Counted from the first letter of the stretch, positions 24,157-33,903 are shown. The stretch is DNA of 56,694 bases from Acidimicrobiia bacterium (GCA_020850945.1 JADZDR010000010.1:1-56694); one strand, 5' to 3'. The notes: generated from the letters alone by a model not told the origin. Numbers and translations are program-made.

Positions 24157-24177
24157 TAGGATCGAACGTATGTTCGA
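24157..24177 (+). promoter_or_regulatory. LexA (SOS) box overlapping -10 and start codon
   Basis: TCGAACGTATGTTCGA at 24162-24177 fits the actinobacterial SOS consensus TCGAAC-N4-GTTCGA perfectly in both arms. The -10-like TAGGAT (24157-24162) runs into its first base, and the ATG of the next gene lies within the box at 24170. LexA binding would therefore block the promoter of a leaderless message. Confidence 0.85.
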
Positions 24178-24463
24178 TAAGACTCTCAGGCGGGGTGTCG
24201 CGTGCGACGGGGTCGAGATGACCGCGTGCATGAAGGGGCGGTTTCGTGTCGGACCGTCCACCTGGTACGTGACCAGTGTCGAGGCCGTGTGGCGCGAGTG
24301 GTCGCTCGGTGGGGGCGACGCATCGGGTCGATGCGAGGCCGGTTCGGACATCGAGATGTGGCGTGTGCACGCCGTGCCGGCCGGAGGTGGTGAGGACGTC
24401 ATCGCCGTCCTCACCTGCGATCTGGTCACAGGTCGATGGCGAGTCGGAGCCGTCTGGGACTGA
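24170..24463 (+). CDS. LexA-controlled DUF6504-like protein
   Basis: A 97-residue protein whose ATG lies inside the LexA box. It starts MFDKTLRRG and contains MKGRFRVGPSTWYVTSVEAV, then DIEMWRVHAV, ending LTCDLVTGRWRVGAVWD. This order (R-F-x-W/V-x-G strand, W-Y-x-V, W-R-V, closing W-R-x-x-x-V/D) resembles DUF6504, short proteins often found beside actinobacterial dinB or dnaE2 genes; I infer membership from pattern, not a search. It stands 52 bp before acetyl-CoA synthetase. A role as an accessory of translesion synthesis is inference from regulation and context. Confidence 0.65.
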   Translation: MFDKTLRRGVACDGVEMTACMKGRFRVGPSTWYVTSVEAVWREWSLGGGDASGRCEAGSDIEMWRVHAVPAGGGEDVIAVLTCDLVTGRWRVGAVWD

Positions 24464-27358: not shown

Positions 27359-27402
27359 TTGTCGGCGGACCGAAGGGGGGCTATTCTCGAACATATGTTC
27401 GA
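27359..27402 (+). promoter_or_regulatory. SOS promoter of the dnaE2 N-terminal gene, with LexA box
   Basis: TTGTCG (27359-27364) and TATTCT (27382-27387) are a -35/-10 pair with 17-bp spacing. The perfect LexA box TCGAACATATGTTCGA covers 27387-27402. The gene's ATG (27395) sits in the box, 7 bases after the -10, so the message would be leaderless and LexA would cover both the -10 and the start. Confidence 0.88.
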
Positions 27403-29971
27403 GAAAACAGGTTCGTTCGTGCACCTCCACACGCACTCGTGCTTCTCGTTCCGCGAGGGGGCGGCCCGTGTCGAGGACCTTGCCCGTGCGGCTGCGAGGA
27501 TGGGGATGTCCGCCCTTGCCCTGACGGATCACATGACGCTCGCCGGTGCCGTGCGGTTCACCAAGGCATGCCGTACCGAGGGGGTGCGACCCGTTCTCGG
27601 CGTGGAGTTGCCGGTCGCGCCGCCGCCGGGTGTTCCCGACCCGTCATCTCGGGAGACCGGGCCTCGGGGTGGCCGGCGCCAGACCCCGGACCTCCACTCC
27701 GGGAACCACGTGACGTTGCTCGCTCGCAACGAGACCGGCTGGGCGAACCTGTGCCGTCTCGTGAGCCACTGGCACCTCTCGCTGCCCTGCAGTGGGACCT
27801 GGGACGGTGCCGAGCCCCCGATCCCGTGGGATGTGCTCTGCGCGCATGCGGGGGGCCTCTTCGTCCTCTCCGGTTGCGCGCGCGGCGAGGTGGCACGTTG
27901 GCTCGGCCGTCGTGACATGGATCGGGCCGAATCCACGGCACGCCGTTACCTCGACGTGTTCGGGTCGGACGCATATGCCCTCGAGGTGTCACACCATCTA
28001 CTGCCGGAGAGCCGTCACCGGATCGAGGCACTCCTGCATCTGGGTGACCATCTCGGGGTGACGGTCTGTGCCACGAACAACGTCCACTACGTGGCCCGCC
28101 GCGACGCCGTCGTGCACGAGTTGCTCGTCGCCATGCGAGATCTCGTTCCCGTGACCTCGCGGCAACAGAGACGCAGCACTGCCGAGTACGACCTCAAGCC
28201 GGCTGCCGCGATGCGTCGCCTCTTCGCCGGTGCGGAGAGGGTCTGTGATGCCTCACTCGAGATCGCGGCTTCCTGCGAGTTCGAGCTCGATCTGCACGTG
28301 CACCACCTACCCGAGCTCGCCGTGAACGACACGATCCGGCGGCTCATCGGCTCCGACCGCCTCCCCTACGGGGCACAGGGGAGGATGCATGCCGATCCGG
28401 CCTGCCTCCTCGAGATGGCATGCGATGCCGGCCTGCGCCGTCGCATGCCCGCCCGGGTGGCTGATCGTGTCGTTCTCGACCGGGTCGGCCACGAGCTCAC
28501 CGTGATCCGCAACCTCGGTTTCTCCGGCTTCTTCGTACTCGTCGCCGAGATCTGCGCGCACATCCGGGAAGCAGGTATCCGTGTGGCATGTCGCGGATCG
28601 GCGGCGGGGAGCCTCGTCACCTACCTCCTCGAGATCTCCGACGTAGACCCGATCCGTCACGATCTGTGCTTCGCGCGGTTCGTGAACGAGTACCGCCACT
28701 CCCTCCCCGACATCGACATCGACGTCGAATCACACCGCCGCGACGAGATCCTCGATTGGATCATGTCCCGGTACGGCCATGAGCGCACTGCCATGGTCGC
28801 TGCCGTCGACACGTATCGGGCGAGAGGCGCGATCCGCGAGGTGGGCAAGGCGCTCGGCTTTCCCTACGACGAGATCGACGTGCTTGCCAAGGCCTTTCCC
28901 CACATCCGTGCCTCGGGGATCTCCACCGCCCTGGAGGAGCTCCCGGAGCTACACGGGCGCAATCTCGACCGGCCCCACCTCGCCCGGCTCTTCGAGCTCT
29001 GCTGTGCCATCGACGGCTTCCCGCGTCACCTTGCCGTACATCCGTGCGGGGTGATCATCGGCCCGTCGAACCTGCGTGATCTGATCCCGTTCGAGCGCAG
29101 CCCGCAGCACCTCCTCATGACCCAGTTCGACAAGGACGACGTCGAGGATCTCGGCCTCGTGAAGCTCGACGTGCTTGGAGTGCGGATGCAGTCGACGATC
29201 TCGCATGCTCTCACCGAGATCGAACGTGTCGAGGGCAGGCGGATCGATCTGAACGGCGTGCCCTTCGCCGACGCGGAGACCTACGACCTGATACGCGCGA
29301 GCCGGACGCTCGGCTGTTTCCAGATCGAGAGTCCGGGTCAGCGTGAGCTTCTCGGCAAGCTCCAACCGACTGCCTTCGACCACATGGTCGTGGACATCTC
29401 GCTGTTCCGGCCGGGGCCGGTCAAGAACGACATGGTGCGACCCTTCGTCGCCCGCCATCACGGCGAGGAGGAGGCCCGGTATGTCTCACCCCTGCTCGTG
29501 CCCTTTCTCGAAGAGACTCACGGGGTGATCGTCTACCACGAACAGGTGATCCGCACGATCGCCGCGCTCGGGGGTGTGTCCGAGGCCGAGGCCGACGCGA
29601 TCCGGCGTCGGCTCGGCGCCCCCGACGATCCGGGAACGATCGAGGTGGGGGAGTGGCTTCGCGCCGCCGCCTGTGCACGTGGTATCCCGGCGGAGGAGGC
29701 AGAAGCGATCTGGAAGGAGGTCGCCGGGTTCGCCTCCTTCGGGTTCTGCAAGGCGCATGCCGCGGCGTTTGCTCTGGTCACATACCAGTCTGCCTGGCTC
29801 AAGGCACACCACCCGGCCGCATTCCTGGCAGGAGTGCTCACCCACGACCCGGGCATGTACCACTCGCGTCTCTTCGTGCACGAGGCACGCCGCCTCGGCG
29901 TCCCCGTCCTTCCCGTCGATGTGAACGGTTCGGCTGGTGAGGACCGGGTCGAACTCACGTGGGTGAATTGA
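27395..29971 (+). CDS. dnaE2: error-prone DNA polymerase DnaE2, N-terminal part (PHP, palm, thumb, fingers)
   Basis: An 858-residue C-family polymerase fragment used in SOS translesion synthesis. PHP domain: HLHTHS at residues 10-15 and ALTDHMTLAGAVRF. Palm: catalytic D439 and D441 in PDIDID and D592 in KLDVLG, the three metal-binding residues. Fingers: RPGPVKNDMVRPF, GFASFGFCKAHAAAFA and the closing HHPAAFLAGVLTHDPGMY to PVLPVDVN. It stops at VELTWVN, just where full-length relatives (about 1,100-1,200 residues) pass into the HhH and OB domains. Those are encoded at 31683-32621. It has its own LexA promoter; the ATG is within the box. Nothing inside it is broken: it is a clean domain-boundary truncation. 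Confidence 0.92.
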   Translation: MFEKTGSFVHLHTHSCFSFREGAARVEDLARAAARMGMSALALTDHMTLAGAVRFTKACRTEGVRPVLGVELPVAPPPGVPDPSSRETGPRGGRRQTPDLHSGNHVTLLARNETGWANLCRLVSHWHLSLPCSGTWDGAEPPIPWDVLCAHAGGLFVLSGCARGEVARWLGRRDMDRAESTARRYLDVFGSDAYALEVSHHLLPESRHRIEALLHLGDHLGVTVCATNNVHYVARRDAVVHELLVAMRDLVPVTSRQQRRSTAEYDLKPAAAMRRLFAGAERVCDASLEIAASCEFELDLHVHHLPELAVNDTIRRLIGSDRLPYGAQGRMHADPACLLEMACDAGLRRRMPARVADRVVLDRVGHELTVIRNLGFSGFFVLVAEICAHIREAGIRVACRGSAAGSLVTYLLEISDVDPIRHDLCFARFVNEYRHSLPDIDIDVESHRRDEILDWIMSRYGHERTAMVAAVDTYRARGAIREVGKALGFPYDEIDVLAKAFPHIRASGISTALEELPELHGRNLDRPHLARLFELCCAIDGFPRHLAVHPCGVIIGPSNLRDLIPFERSPQHLLMTQFDKDDVEDLGLVKLDVLGVRMQSTISHALTEIERVEGRRIDLNGVPFADAETYDLIRASRTLGCFQIESPGQRELLGKLQPTAFDHMVVDISLFRPGPVKNDMVRPFVARHHGEEEARYVSPLLVPFLEETHGVIVYHEQVIRTIAALGGVSEAEADAIRRRLGAPDDPGTIEVGEWLRAAACARGIPAEEAEAIWKEVAGFASFGFCKAHAAAFALVTYQSAWLKAHHPAAFLAGVLTHDPGMYHSRLFVHEARRLGVPVLPVDVNGSAGEDRVELTWVN

Positions 29972-29973
29972 GA

Positions 29974-29986
29974 TACCGCGGCGGTA
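29974..29986 (+). terminator. short hairpin after the dnaE2 N-terminal gene
   Basis: TACCGC (29974-29979) and GCGGTA (29981-29986) are perfectly complementary around a single G, starting 2 bases after the stop codon. It may end the transcript before the converging DtxR gene; the stem is short and no T-tract follows. Confidence 0.3.
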
Positions 29987-30024
29987 CTCGGATGCGCCCA
30001 CGTCGTGTGTCGGTCAGGCCGACG

Positions 30025-30702
30025 TCAGATGTGGGTCACGTGGATGTGGGCCCCGAGTCCGGGGCCGATCGACACCGTCGTCGAGTCCGTCATCACGCTC
30101 AGGGACCCGTCGGGTGCCACAGTCATGATCTGGCCGCGCACACCGGGTCGGAAGCCCTTCTGATCGAAGTACTGCATGACGTCGCCCTGAACTTCGATGC
30201 CTTCGGTGACGCGTTCGAGGCGGAACTTGTGGCCGGCCGCGAGCTCGAGGATCGGCACGGCCTCGGGATCGTCGTAGGCGCTGCCGGGGATCGGGCTCCC
30301 GTGCGGGCAGGTCGTGGGGTTTCCGAGAACTTCGAGGGCCCGTTCCACGACGCGATCGGACAGGCCGTGCTCGAGGCGGTGTGCCTCCTCGTGCGCCTCG
30401 TACCACGACATGCCGAGGAGGTCGACGAGGATCCGCTCTGCGACCCGGTGCCTGCGCACGATGTTGTCGGCGACGCGTCTGCCGTCCTGTGTGAGGCGGA
30501 TGCGCTTGCGGTCCTGGAGCTCGACGAGGCCGTCGTCGACGAGACCGCGGATCGCCTCCGAGACGGACGGCGCACTCACCCCGAGGCGCTCGGCGAGGCG
30601 GGCGCGGATGACGGGGATGTCGTCCTCCGAGAGCTGCATGATCGTCTGCAGGTAGTCCTCGCGGGCGATCGACTGCCGGACAGGCGTTGTGGACGCGACC
30701 AT
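30025..30702 (-). CDS. DtxR/MntR-family metal-dependent regulator
   Basis: A 225-residue regulator. Residues about 10-60 form the winged HTH (EDYLQTIMQLSEDD, then RLAERLGVSAPSVSEAIRGL). The dimer and metal domain has the pattern of the family (NIVRRHRVAERILVDLLGM, EAHRLEHGLSD with H/E ligands, and CPHGSPIPG with Cys and His). The C-terminal part (about 150-225) is an FeoA/SH3-like domain. It would repress iron or manganese uptake genes when metal is plentiful. It converges on the dnaE2 N-terminal gene, in the gap between the two polymerase halves. ATG 30702 is chosen by family length. Confidence 0.92.
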   Translation of the reverse strand: MVASTTPVRQSIAREDYLQTIMQLSEDDIPVIRARLAERLGVSAPSVSEAIRGLVDDGLVELQDRKRIRLTQDGRRVADNIVRRHRVAERILVDLLGMSWYEAHEEAHRLEHGLSDRVVERALEVLGNPTTCPHGSPIPGSAYDDPEAVPILELAAGHKFRLERVTEGIEVQGDVMQYFDQKGFRPGVRGQIMTVAPDGSLSVMTDSTTVSIGPGLGAHIHVTHI

Positions 30703-30817
30703 GGTCCCAGCGTATCCGAAGCCGGAGTCGTACCGCTCACGGGATCGGTGACTTTCGGTCCTGGAATACGGGGCGGATCCTGTGGGAGGCTGCGCGGAGG
30801 CGAGCCAGGGGGGCACC

Positions 30818-31645
30818 ATGCCTGGGTCACACCGAACAGAGGCCGACGCGTCCTCGCGATCGTGGCGCGGTGTCGCGATCGGAGCCGTTGTCGTCGCGAC
30901 GTGCGCCGTGATCGTCGCTGCCACCGCAGTCGTCGCGTGGCGGGACGCGGACACCGCGACGGAGGGAACGCCGGATCCGAACATGTTGTCGGCCGCCGTC
31001 GAGCCCGCCGACTCGATCGGCCCCGACGCGTTCACGCCACCGGTCACGGCCGACACCGCGCAGATCTGCGATCGGGAGCGGTTCCTCCGCTACCTCGACG
31101 AGAGGCCCGATGCCAGGCGTGAGTGGGTCCGTGTCCTCGACGTGGACGCGGACACGCTGGAGGAGTACGTGATGTCCCTCGAGCCGACGGTTCTCCCGCA
31201 GGACACACTGGTCACGAACCACGGGCTTTCCGGCGGGAAGGCGTACGCCCGCCTGTCGCTGCTCGAGCAGGGCACTGCGGTGCTGGTCGAGCCTGTGGAC
31301 CCGGTGCAGGGCGCGCCCCCACCCGGCGAACCGAACCCGCCGGACACGGTGACGACGGCGGCGACCACGACGACAGGACCAACGCAGCCACCGAACGTCG
31401 TCACGAGATGCAAGTGCGGCAATCCGCTCCTTCCTCCTCCCGACACGACGACGAGCTCCTCCTCGACGACATCGTCGACCACGACGTCACCGGAGGGACC
31501 GGAGGACGAGGCGAGACCGCCTGCAGGGGAGCCTCCCGACGAGGAGACCACGACCACGACCGTCGAGTCCTCCACCGAAGACACGACGACGACTCTCGAC
31601 TCATCGGACAACGTCACACCTTCGCCGGACCAGGGTCCCGACTGA
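30818..31645 (+). CDS. membrane-anchored Thr-rich protein with a DUF6777-like domain
   Basis: A 275-residue protein. ATG 30818 follows AGGGGGGCACC. Residues 17-42 are a hydrophobic anchor (GVAIGAVVVATCAVIVAATAV). The conserved outer domain (about 85-195) contains ICDRERFLRYLDERPDARRE, LVTNHGLSGGKAYARLSLLE, GTAVLVEP and CKCGNPLLPP; this series matches the uncharacterised DUF6777 as I recall it. The rest (about 200-275) is low-complexity Thr/Ser/Glu/Asp/Pro, typical of wall-spanning stalks. It ends 37 bp before the second dnaE2 piece. No role in repair is implied by its sequence. Confidence 0.65.
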   Translation: MPGSHRTEADASSRSWRGVAIGAVVVATCAVIVAATAVVAWRDADTATEGTPDPNMLSAAVEPADSIGPDAFTPPVTADTAQICDRERFLRYLDERPDARREWVRVLDVDADTLEEYVMSLEPTVLPQDTLVTNHGLSGGKAYARLSLLEQGTAVLVEPVDPVQGAPPPGEPNPPDTVTTAATTTTGPTQPPNVVTRCKCGNPLLPPPDTTTSSSSTTSSTTTSPEGPEDEARPPAGEPPDEETTTTTVESSTEDTTTTLDSSDNVTPSPDQGPD

Positions 31646-31656
31646 GCGGTGCGGCT

Positions 31657-31677
31657 TGTACTCGAACATGTGTTCGA
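31657..31677 (+). promoter_or_regulatory. LexA (SOS) box before the dnaE2 C-terminal gene
   Basis: TCGAACATGTGTTCGA at 31662-31677 is a perfect-arm SOS box. As at the other two sites, a -10-like hexamer (TGTACT, 31657-31662) ends on the first base of the box. The position used as start codon in the other two boxes here reads GTG and opens a three-codon frame, V-F-E-stop, ending one base before the ATG at 31683. Confidence 0.85.
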
Positions 31678-31682
31678 GTAAG

Positions 31683-32621
31683 ATGAGAGGCCTCGCGTGG
31701 ACACGGGGGTCGTCAGTGGGTCGGACAACACGGGGCAGACATCGAGGCATCCGCTTGGGGCTCCACCATGTCGTCGGCCTCGGTGAGGCCGAGCTCGCGT
31801 CCATCGCCCGTGCGCGGGCGGAACGCCCGTTCACGTCCCTCGAGGACTTCGTGCACCGTACCGAGGTCCCACGACCGGCTGTCGAGAACCTCGTGCGTGT
31901 GGGAGCCTTCGACTCCCTCGCCCCGCGCGGACGGCGCGCACTCCTGTGGAGGATCGAGGAGATCTGGCGGGCGGGCGGTTCTCGCGCGGAGGTCGGATCC
32001 GGGGTGGAGCCACTTCCCCTCCGGTCCCGCACCGAGGGCATCCCCCTCGTCGGCCTCCGCGACTTCACTCCGGCCGAGAAAGTCCGGATGGAGCTCGAGA
32101 TCCTCGGTCTCGATGTCACGGATCACCTGCTCCGCTTCTATGCGGAGGTGTGTGAGTGCCTCGAGGTGATCGCGGCGGCGGAGCTGTGCCGGCACGAAGA
32201 CGGCGCGCGCGTCACGGTTGCCGGAGTGAAGGTGGCGACCCAGACCCCCGCAGTCCGGTCGGGGAAGCGCATCATCTTCCTCACTCTCGACGACCCCACC
32301 GGTCCGAGCGACATCACGTTGTTCCCCAACGTCCAGGCGCGTCGGCGCAGGACGGGACGCGCCGAGACCGAAGCCCCTCCCGACGATCGCAATTTCGCGA
32401 CGATCGCCTTCCACTCCTTCGTACTTGCCGCAAGGGGCAGGCTGCGTCGGACCGGCCCGACCGGACGCGGGATCTCGATCGTCGCCGAGGAGTTGTGGGA
32501 TCTGCAACGCTTCGCCCCCCGGGACACCGCATGCGGTGGCAGGCATCCTCCGGCACAGCGCTTCGAGGACCTACCGTCTCCACGGCGGGTCTGGCACGTG
32601 AGTGGAGGTTCGGCCGGATGA
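31683..32621 (+). CDS. dnaE2: error-prone DNA polymerase DnaE2, C-terminal part (HhH and OB domains)
   Basis: A 312-residue protein that continues exactly where the fragment at 27395-29971 stops. Residues about 22-75 are the tandem helix-hairpin-helix part (GIRLGLHHVVGLGEAELASI, then PFTSLEDFVHRTEVPRPAVE and VGAFDSL). Residues about 165-230 are the OB fold that binds template DNA (RVTVAGVKVATQTPAVRSGK, then LTLDDPTGPSDITLFPNVQA). It has no catalytic residues and could act only with the other half. ATG 31683 is chosen; an in-frame ATG at 31668 lies inside the LexA box but probably upstream of the transcript start. No intein sequence flanks either break. It is followed 40 bp later by dinB. Confidence 0.88.
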   Translation: MRGLAWTRGSSVGRTTRGRHRGIRLGLHHVVGLGEAELASIARARAERPFTSLEDFVHRTEVPRPAVENLVRVGAFDSLAPRGRRALLWRIEEIWRAGGSRAEVGSGVEPLPLRSRTEGIPLVGLRDFTPAEKVRMELEILGLDVTDHLLRFYAEVCECLEVIAAAELCRHEDGARVTVAGVKVATQTPAVRSGKRIIFLTLDDPTGPSDITLFPNVQARRRRTGRAETEAPPDDRNFATIAFHSFVLAARGRLRRTGPTGRGISIVAEELWDLQRFAPRDTACGGRHPPAQRFEDLPSPRRVWHVSGGSAG

Positions 32622-32661: not shown

Positions 32662-33903
32662 ATGATCGGTGAGGAATCGATCCTGCACGTCGACATGGAC
32701 GCGTTCTTCGCCTCGGTCGAGATCCGGGACAACCCGGAGTTGAGAGGCAAACCCGTGATCGTCGCCGGACTCGGGAATCGAGGGGTCGTGACGGCCGCCT
32801 CCTACGAGGCCCGCAGGTACGGGGTGCATTCGGCAATGCCCACACTGCGGGCCCGGCGCCTCTGCCCCGACGGGATCTTCCTTTCGCCACACGGCCCGCG
32901 TTATCACGAGGAATCCGAAGCCATCCGGCTGATCTTCGAGGCCTTCACTCCCCTCGTCGAGTCGGTCTCCCTCGACGAAGCCTTCCTCGACGTGCGTGGT
33001 GTCGGCCGGCTCTTCGGGGATGCCGTCACCGTGGGCAGGGCGATCAGGGGACGCATCGCCCGCGATCGCCGCCTGCCCGCGAGTGTCGGAATCGGGACGA
33101 GCAAGCTCATCGCCAAGCTCGCCTCCCGCGCCGCCAAGCCGGATGGACTGGTCTTCGTGCCGGCCGGCACGGAGACCGACTTCCTCTGGCCCCGCCCCGT
33201 ATCGGCGTTGTGGGGAGTGGGGAAGGCCACGCTCGAACTGCTCGACCGTCTCGGGATCCGCACGGTCGGTGACCTCGCCGGGGTCCCTCTCCCCTCGCTC
33301 GAGCGCGTTCTGGGTGGTGTGCACGGCCGCCACCTTCATGCGCTGGCTCATGCACACGACCCTTCCCCCGTGACGACTGATCGGGCTCCCAAGTCGATCG
33401 GGCACGAACAGACGTTCCCGGTCGACCTGTCGGATCCCGAGACGATCCACACCGAGTTGCTGCGACTCTCGGATCGGGTGTCGAGACGCCTGCGCCGCAG
33501 CGGGTGCTCCGCAAGGACGATCACTCTCAAATGCCGCCTCGCCACCTTCCGGACGCTGACGCGGTCGACAACCATGCAAGAGCCCGTGGACGCGACACCC
33601 GAGATCCACGCCGCAGTCGTGGAGAGCCTTGCGAAGTTGAGGTTGGGTCATCCCGCGATCAGACTCCTCGGAGTCTCGGCGTCCGGGCTGCGCGTGGGAA
33701 GCCCGATCCGCCAACTCAGCTTCGAGTCACGGCCCCACTGGCAGGCGGTCATGCGGGCGACAGACAGGGTGCGGGACCGCTGGGGGGAGGATGCCGTGAG
33801 GCCGGCGCGGCTCCTGCCTGGCGGAGAAGCGGCCACTGCCGACCACCTCGAGGTGCGAAGATCCGGCATCGCAGGGTTCTCTCGCGGGCCGGTGGAAATA
33901 TAA
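32662..33903 (+). CDS. dinB: DNA polymerase IV (Y family)
   Basis: A 413-residue translesion polymerase. HVDMDAFFASVE (D11) and SVSLDEAFLDV (D105, E106) hold the three catalytic acidic residues, so it is a true DinB and not the inactive ImuB type. VGIGTSKLIAKLAS and PVSALWGVGKAT mark the palm and thumb; the little-finger domain ends about residue 350. A clamp-binding-like RQLSFES lies near residue 355, degenerate compared with QL-S/D-LF. It is 40 bp downstream of the dnaE2 C-terminal gene and has no LexA box of its own, so both are likely transcribed from the 31662 box. In Streptomyces a dnaE2-dinB pair also occurs. Confidence 0.93.
   Translation: MIGEESILHVDMDAFFASVEIRDNPELRGKPVIVAGLGNRGVVTAASYEARRYGVHSAMPTLRARRLCPDGIFLSPHGPRYHEESEAIRLIFEAFTPLVESVSLDEAFLDVRGVGRLFGDAVTVGRAIRGRIARDRRLPASVGIGTSKLIAKLASRAAKPDGLVFVPAGTETDFLWPRPVSALWGVGKATLELLDRLGIRTVGDLAGVPLPSLERVLGGVHGRHLHALAHAHDPSPVTTDRAPKSIGHEQTFPVDLSDPETIHTELLRLSDRVSRRLRRSGCSARTITLKCRLATFRTLTRSTTMQEPVDATPEIHAAVVESLAKLRLGHPAIRLLGVSASGLRVGSPIRQLSFESRPHWQAVMRATDRVRDRWGEDAVRPARLLPGGEAATADHLEVRRSGIAGFSRGPVEI

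Follow-up and report, generated by a model that had tools for sequence, protein, structure and literature searches.

Organisation of the locus

The window, meaning the whole analysed stretch of 56,694 nucleotides from an Acidimicrobiia bacterium (GCA_020850945.1, JADZDR010000010.1:1-56694), belongs to a draft genome of 97 contigs that is 98.5% complete. It contains a C-family DNA polymerase gene, dnaE2B, divided into two open reading frames, together with other genes and three LexA boxes, distributed as follows.

24162..24177, no strand assigned: perfect LexA (SOS) box of the first operon piece, containing the ATG of the DUF6504-like gene
24170..24463 (stop included), plus strand: DUF6504-like (ImuB-C family) gene, 97 aa, the presumed gene 1 of the ancestral operon, now detached
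27387..27402, no strand assigned: perfect LexA box of dnaE2B-N, overlapping its start codon
27395..29971, plus strand: N half of dnaE2B, 858 aa, with PHP, palm and fingers (D439, D441, D592)
30025..30702, minus strand: dtxR-family (iron-dependent repressor) gene, an insert separating the halves, found 3' of the congener N half too
30782..31645, plus strand: DUF6777 protein gene, an insert between the halves
31662..31677, no strand assigned: perfect LexA box of dnaE2B-C and dinB, 5' of dnaE2B-C
31683..32621, plus strand: C half of dnaE2B, 312 aa, with (HhH)2, OB fold and the conserved C-terminal tail WHxSGGSAG
32662..33903, plus strand: dinB (Y-family polymerase), the presumed ancestral partner gene, with a RecA-NT-like motif near the C terminus

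The resulting order is LexA box and DUF6504-like gene; acs and ldt; LexA box and dnaE2B-N; dtxR and DUF6777; and LexA box, dnaE2B-C and dinB, the last of which starts 40 bp past dnaE2B-C. As the preliminary description of this DNA had it, the polymerase gene is split into two frames, both open and without internal stops, and all three catalytic aspartates (D439, D441 and D592) lie in the N half. In Pfam terms, the N half contains PHP, DNA_pol3_alpha and DNA_pol3_finger, and the C half contains HHH_6 (profile positions 20-86) and the OB fold, so that the two genes jointly provide the set of a C-family DNA polymerase: PHP, palm with three aspartates, fingers, (HhH)2 and OB. Instead of at 31683, the C half may start within the LexA box, at an ATG in the same frame (31668), which would make its product 317 aa long.

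Position of the break

The break had been placed at a domain boundary, which does not hold, as it falls within HHH_6, in a loop of variable length. In relatives, the linker between ...DVNRSxxYxVE and GIRLAL... measures 8-62 residues; the N half terminates with VNGSAGEDRVELTWVN, and the C half begins with MRGLAWTRGSSVGRTTRGRHRGIRLGL and picks up the alignment at ...GIRLGL. Mapped onto the predicted structure of an unsplit relative (pTM 0.83, mean pLDDT 85.6), the cut separates the strands 799-803 and 806-810, which in this model can be read as a hairpin. Because the cut sits in a length-variable loop, no conserved domain is lost. The C half alone is predicted to form good HhH and OB folds (most blocks there with pLDDT 82-97, overall mean 74), and its best PDB fold matches are the DnaE proteins of M. 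tuberculosis and Thermus. The absence of an intein at the break was borne out, neither inspection for intein motifs nor the Pfam search yielding a match. Apparent inteins occur elsewhere in this genome: its recA (L223, G000:C8, about 78.7-80.5 kb) is a single ORF of 1345 aa with two of them, after GVLFG|C and VKVAKNK|C.

Affiliation of the polymerase

The gene had been labelled DnaE2. This label has to be narrowed, as the protein is not a canonical DnaE2 (DnaE2A/ImuC) and groups instead as DnaE2B with the Streptomyces DnaE2. The NCBIfam model of error-prone DnaE2, NF004225, has a curated cut-off of 939, and the halves stay below it with 626 bits (N) and 93 bits (C); by comparison, 777 bits are reached by an unsplit relative, 621 by a relative on a Streptomyces plasmid, and 1381 by a true DnaE2 from G001, a genome of the same family. 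In a tree of the N region (42 rows, drawn from outside the published DnaE2B set), the proteins of the window and of a congener form a clade with chromosomal and plasmid DnaE2 of Streptomyces (100 SH-aLRT), apart from both canonical DnaE2 and DnaE1. A second, full-length dnaE2 was sought in the genome and not found, the sole other DnaE being the replicative DnaE1 on contig C58.

A 2026 survey divides DnaE2 into DnaE2A, which is accompanied by ImuA-ImuB, DnaE2B, to which the Streptomyces proteins belong, and DnaE2X (PMC12926913). One DnaE2B group is accompanied by RecA, a stand-alone ImuB-C and a Y-family polymerase that appears to be active (PMC12926913), and the locus in the window fits this DnaE2B-PolY-ImuB-C group by gene content: dinB follows the C half by 40 bp, and a DUF6504-like gene with a LexA box lies 3 kb upstream. 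The window's dinB is the single Y-family gene of the genome (PF00817), and RecA itself is the only match to the RecA model (PF00154). The combination of ImuA and ImuB that goes with DnaE2A was not detected in the genome by this PF00817/PF00154 search, which a very reduced ImuB could escape.

Among 296 sampled genomes of the class, no further members of this DnaE2B clade were listed, and the matches listed from those genomes are at most 37% identical outside the genus. The family-mate G001 has no DnaE2B polymerase; in its place is a canonical DnaE2, full-length and with a LexA box to itself (L010, G001:C65), which suggests that one mutasome type was exchanged for another inside the family. Two Streptomyces plasmids (L046 and L047) have a DnaE2B-type "dnaE" followed by an IMS_C/HhH-only gene, with Ku nearby and, in the vicinity of the L046 copy, a plasmid LexA.

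Unsplit relatives and the ancestral operon

When the split was looked for among relatives by searching genome contigs, the N and C parts were found in a single ORF in all of the best 80 (80/80), most of which have a LexA box upstream and many of which have dinB directly downstream. Among 20 larger loci of relatives, dnaE2B (N-C) is followed by dinB on the same strand in 18; the exceptions are a Streptomyces locus, where the next gene resembles just part of dinB, and one locus without dinB. Several short frames were considered as further cases of splitting and discarded, as L056, L069, L073-L078 and L080 end at, or are cut by, contig edges; in L079 the first part is in a different frame, a possible frameshift.

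In most relatives, a gene of the DUF6504 type stands between the LexA box and dnaE2B. A profile made exclusively from SOS-linked DUF6504 genes of 82 relatives has just two matches among 706 ORFs, namely the gene of the window (E=1.7e-5) and the copy in the congener (6.2e-7). A Pfam scan of the window's 97-aa gene alone gave no match, and PF20114 is matched by both of the relatives' DUF6504 copies tested (n=2). A single-protein scan of genome contigs returned no match. By position and sequence pattern, DUF6504 probably corresponds to ImuB-C. Between the window and the congener, the DUF6504-like gene has a dN/dS of 0.47 over 71 codons, a short comparison; because it evolves fast and is missed by Pfam, this component of the module may be in the course of change or decay. 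The dinB gene of the window clusters with those of the congener (G002) and of G001 (96 SH-aLRT), and can therefore be regarded as native to the family.

Given the downstream dinB and upstream DUF6504 of the relatives, together with the DUF6504-like copies in the window and the congener, the ancestral arrangement was probably LexA box-DUF6504-dnaE2B-dinB. On this reconstruction from gene order, the operon is now in three LexA-controlled pieces, and the splitting of dnaE2B is one part of a wider break-up.

LexA control of the three units

Each half has its own perfect LexA box, as originally described (TCGAACN4GTTCGA at 27387 and 31662), and a third perfect box, absent from that description, lies at 24162. 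The genome has 15 perfect boxes, three of them within 7.5 kb at this locus. From base composition, 0.0014 perfect boxes per window would be expected, and the reversed control pattern has no match genome-wide (0). Since one of the 15 copies sits 104 bp upstream of lexA, the motif can be taken as the LexA box of this organism, and by the presence of a box all three units belong to the LexA/SOS regulon.

In three instances (24162-24177, 27387-27402 and L157 near 3300), the box encloses the start codon, which stands 7 nt past a TANNNT hexamer (TAGGAT, TATTCT), as expected of leaderless SOS transcripts. The corresponding position in the box of the C half is taken by a GTG, which is out of frame, and the ATG at 31668 is in frame; the hexamer that overlaps this box, TGTACT, is a poorer promoter match than the hexamers of the other two units. 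A copied promoter was considered as the origin of this arrangement and rejected, as the similarity between the regions upstream of N and C stops at the LexA box itself. Elsewhere in the genome, five of the 15 perfect boxes are located directly upstream of genes resembling HNH endonucleases of the DUF222/13E12 type (identified by eye; L212-L216, on contigs C13, C35, C37, C45 and C52), which suggests that this repeat family is largely SOS-controlled here.

Age of the split and selection on the halves

In the congener G002, the N half ends at the same place (...VELF*) and is followed by dtxR in the same orientation, so that the split is older than the two species. As the contig of G002 stops past dtxR, and its dinB starts at another contig edge, the C half of G002 is in an assembly gap; a C half has been observed in one genome only. 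The LexA box of the G002 N half is degenerate (TCGAACATATGTTTGT).

Relaxed selection, which the preliminary description had proposed to look for in the pieces, was tested on the N half. Between the window and G002, dS is 1.21, dN 0.128 and dN/dS 0.106, indicating strong purifying selection; the value for acs is higher (0.137). Of the columns that are invariant in 24 unsplit relatives, the window retains 125/133 in N and 26/28 in C. With N and C aligned separately, C has diverged 1.08 times as much as N in the window, versus 1.09 +/- 0.11 times in unsplit pairs of similar N divergence, so that the C half gives no sign of relaxed constraint relative to unsplit relatives. Simulated neutral drift over half the observed dS leaves the C half with ~33% identity to its start sequence, and with a frame that is still open in 1-8% of the runs, depending on the base composition assumed. 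The intein-free split of the DnaE2B gene is thus real and, as far as relatives were examined, confined to this genus, and the sequence comparisons are evidence that its function is maintained.

A polymerase probably made as two polypeptides

The reading that we consider likely is that this DnaE2B translesion polymerase is made as two polypeptides that assemble and function together with RecA, DinB and the ImuB-C-like protein. Two assembling proteins are probable because each piece has its own damage switch and looks conserved rather than decaying. The ancestral LexA box-DUF6504(ImuB-C)-dnaE2B-dinB operon would have been dispersed into three units, each with its own LexA box, and DNA damage, through LexA cleavage, would induce the three together. 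The halves would then re-associate non-covalently, probably by re-pairing of the two strands that flank the cut and by docking of HhH and OB along the DNA path, and the assembled enzyme would act with its putative partners. In published models of the canonical mutasome (PMC12926913), PHP is placed next to ImuB-C, and (HhH)2 next to the thumb of the Y-family protein. Should DnaE2B make the same contacts, the partner of the C half, which is encoded together with dinB, would be DinB, and that of the N half would be the ImuB-C-like protein. Seen by eye only, the end of DinB has a RecA-NT-like stretch, ATDRVRDRWGEDAVRPARLL, comparable to AVSQIERQFGKGALMKLG in the organism's own RecA. A more ambitious version, in which this is the first intein-free two-subunit C-family polymerase, fixed in the genus, with its own LexA box on each fragment and assembled from C-DinB and N-ImuB-C-like sub-complexes, is put forward tentatively, as a possibility that we rather doubt.

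Other explanations have to be weighed against the assembling enzyme. The two products may divide the labour without reassembling, the N half being a minimal polymerase of low processivity, and the C half a DNA- or DinB-binding accessory expressed from the dinB operon. N and C do belong to separate transcription units, the C half lies 40 bp ahead of dinB behind one common LexA box, and such an accessory would suit the published models of a related mutasome, in which DnaE2 abuts the thumb of its Y-family partner with the (HhH)2 region (PMC12926913). However, the residues fixed in the fused form are kept in both halves and the C/N ratio is unchanged, which fits joint function better and makes a division of labour unlikely.

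Slow decay, in which the insertion killed the polymerase and left an N half that survives fortuitously or as an enzyme with residual activity, and a C half that is an untranslated or useless leader of dinB, would be in line with the degenerate N-half LexA box of G002, the C half unseen there across the assembly gap, and the fast evolution of the DUF6504-like gene. It is nevertheless quite improbable, given that the N half has a dN/dS of 0.106 at a dS of about 1.2, below that of acs, and that the C half, despite a split older than the two species, has stayed open, keeps the conserved motif of its C-terminal tail and retains 26/28 of the invariant residues. An assembly or sequencing artefact that joined unrelated segments within dnaE2B might be suspected of a 97-contig draft; but in the independently assembled congener the N half stops at the same place, with an equally oriented dtxR behind it, and each half has a separate LexA box, so that error of this kind is extremely improbable.

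Implications

No report of a split or fissioned DnaE2 was found in the open-access literature, and we know of no report of a DnaE2-type SOS polymerase consisting of two polypeptides without an intein. The locus points to a site at which a C-family polymerase can be cut and yet be kept by selection, offers biochemistry a natural two-part DnaE2 as separate N and C proteins, and exemplifies a damage-inducible operon that has been scattered with its own LexA box on each fragment. Additionally, the proposed partnership of DnaE2B, DinB and ImuB-C becomes testable, since dinB is the only gene to which the C half remains linked.

Comparison with known systems

The closest counterpart is the putative DnaE2B-PolY-(ImuB-C)-RecA mutasome, for example that of Tessaracoccus lapidicaptus (PMC12926913), with which the locus shares a polymerase of the DnaE2B clade, an adjacent Y-family polymerase, a small ImuB-C-like protein, LexA control and the lack of any other detected Y-family gene. 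It differs from it in that the polymerase is encoded as two polypeptides and the operon is spread over three LexA units, whereas dnaE is a single gene in every relative inspected. The Streptomyces DnaE2 (chromosomal, with plasmid copies annotated as dnaE) falls in the same tree clade, the N half being 43-46% identical, but is encoded by one gene of about 1,150-1,220 aa, and its neighbour is an IMS_C/HhH protein resembling an inactivated Y-family polymerase instead of a full dinB. Canonical DnaE2 (DnaE2A/ImuC) is likewise a LexA-controlled C-family polymerase that works with a Y-family protein, while the polymerase of the window scores under the NF004225 cut-off, lies in a separate clade and is accompanied by no detected ImuB. 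Finally, the split DnaE of cyanobacteria is a replicative enzyme whose halves are rejoined by a split intein (PMC3919608). Both are C-family polymerases produced from two separate genes, but the break in the window has no intein motifs, and the enzyme that it divides is an SOS polymerase.
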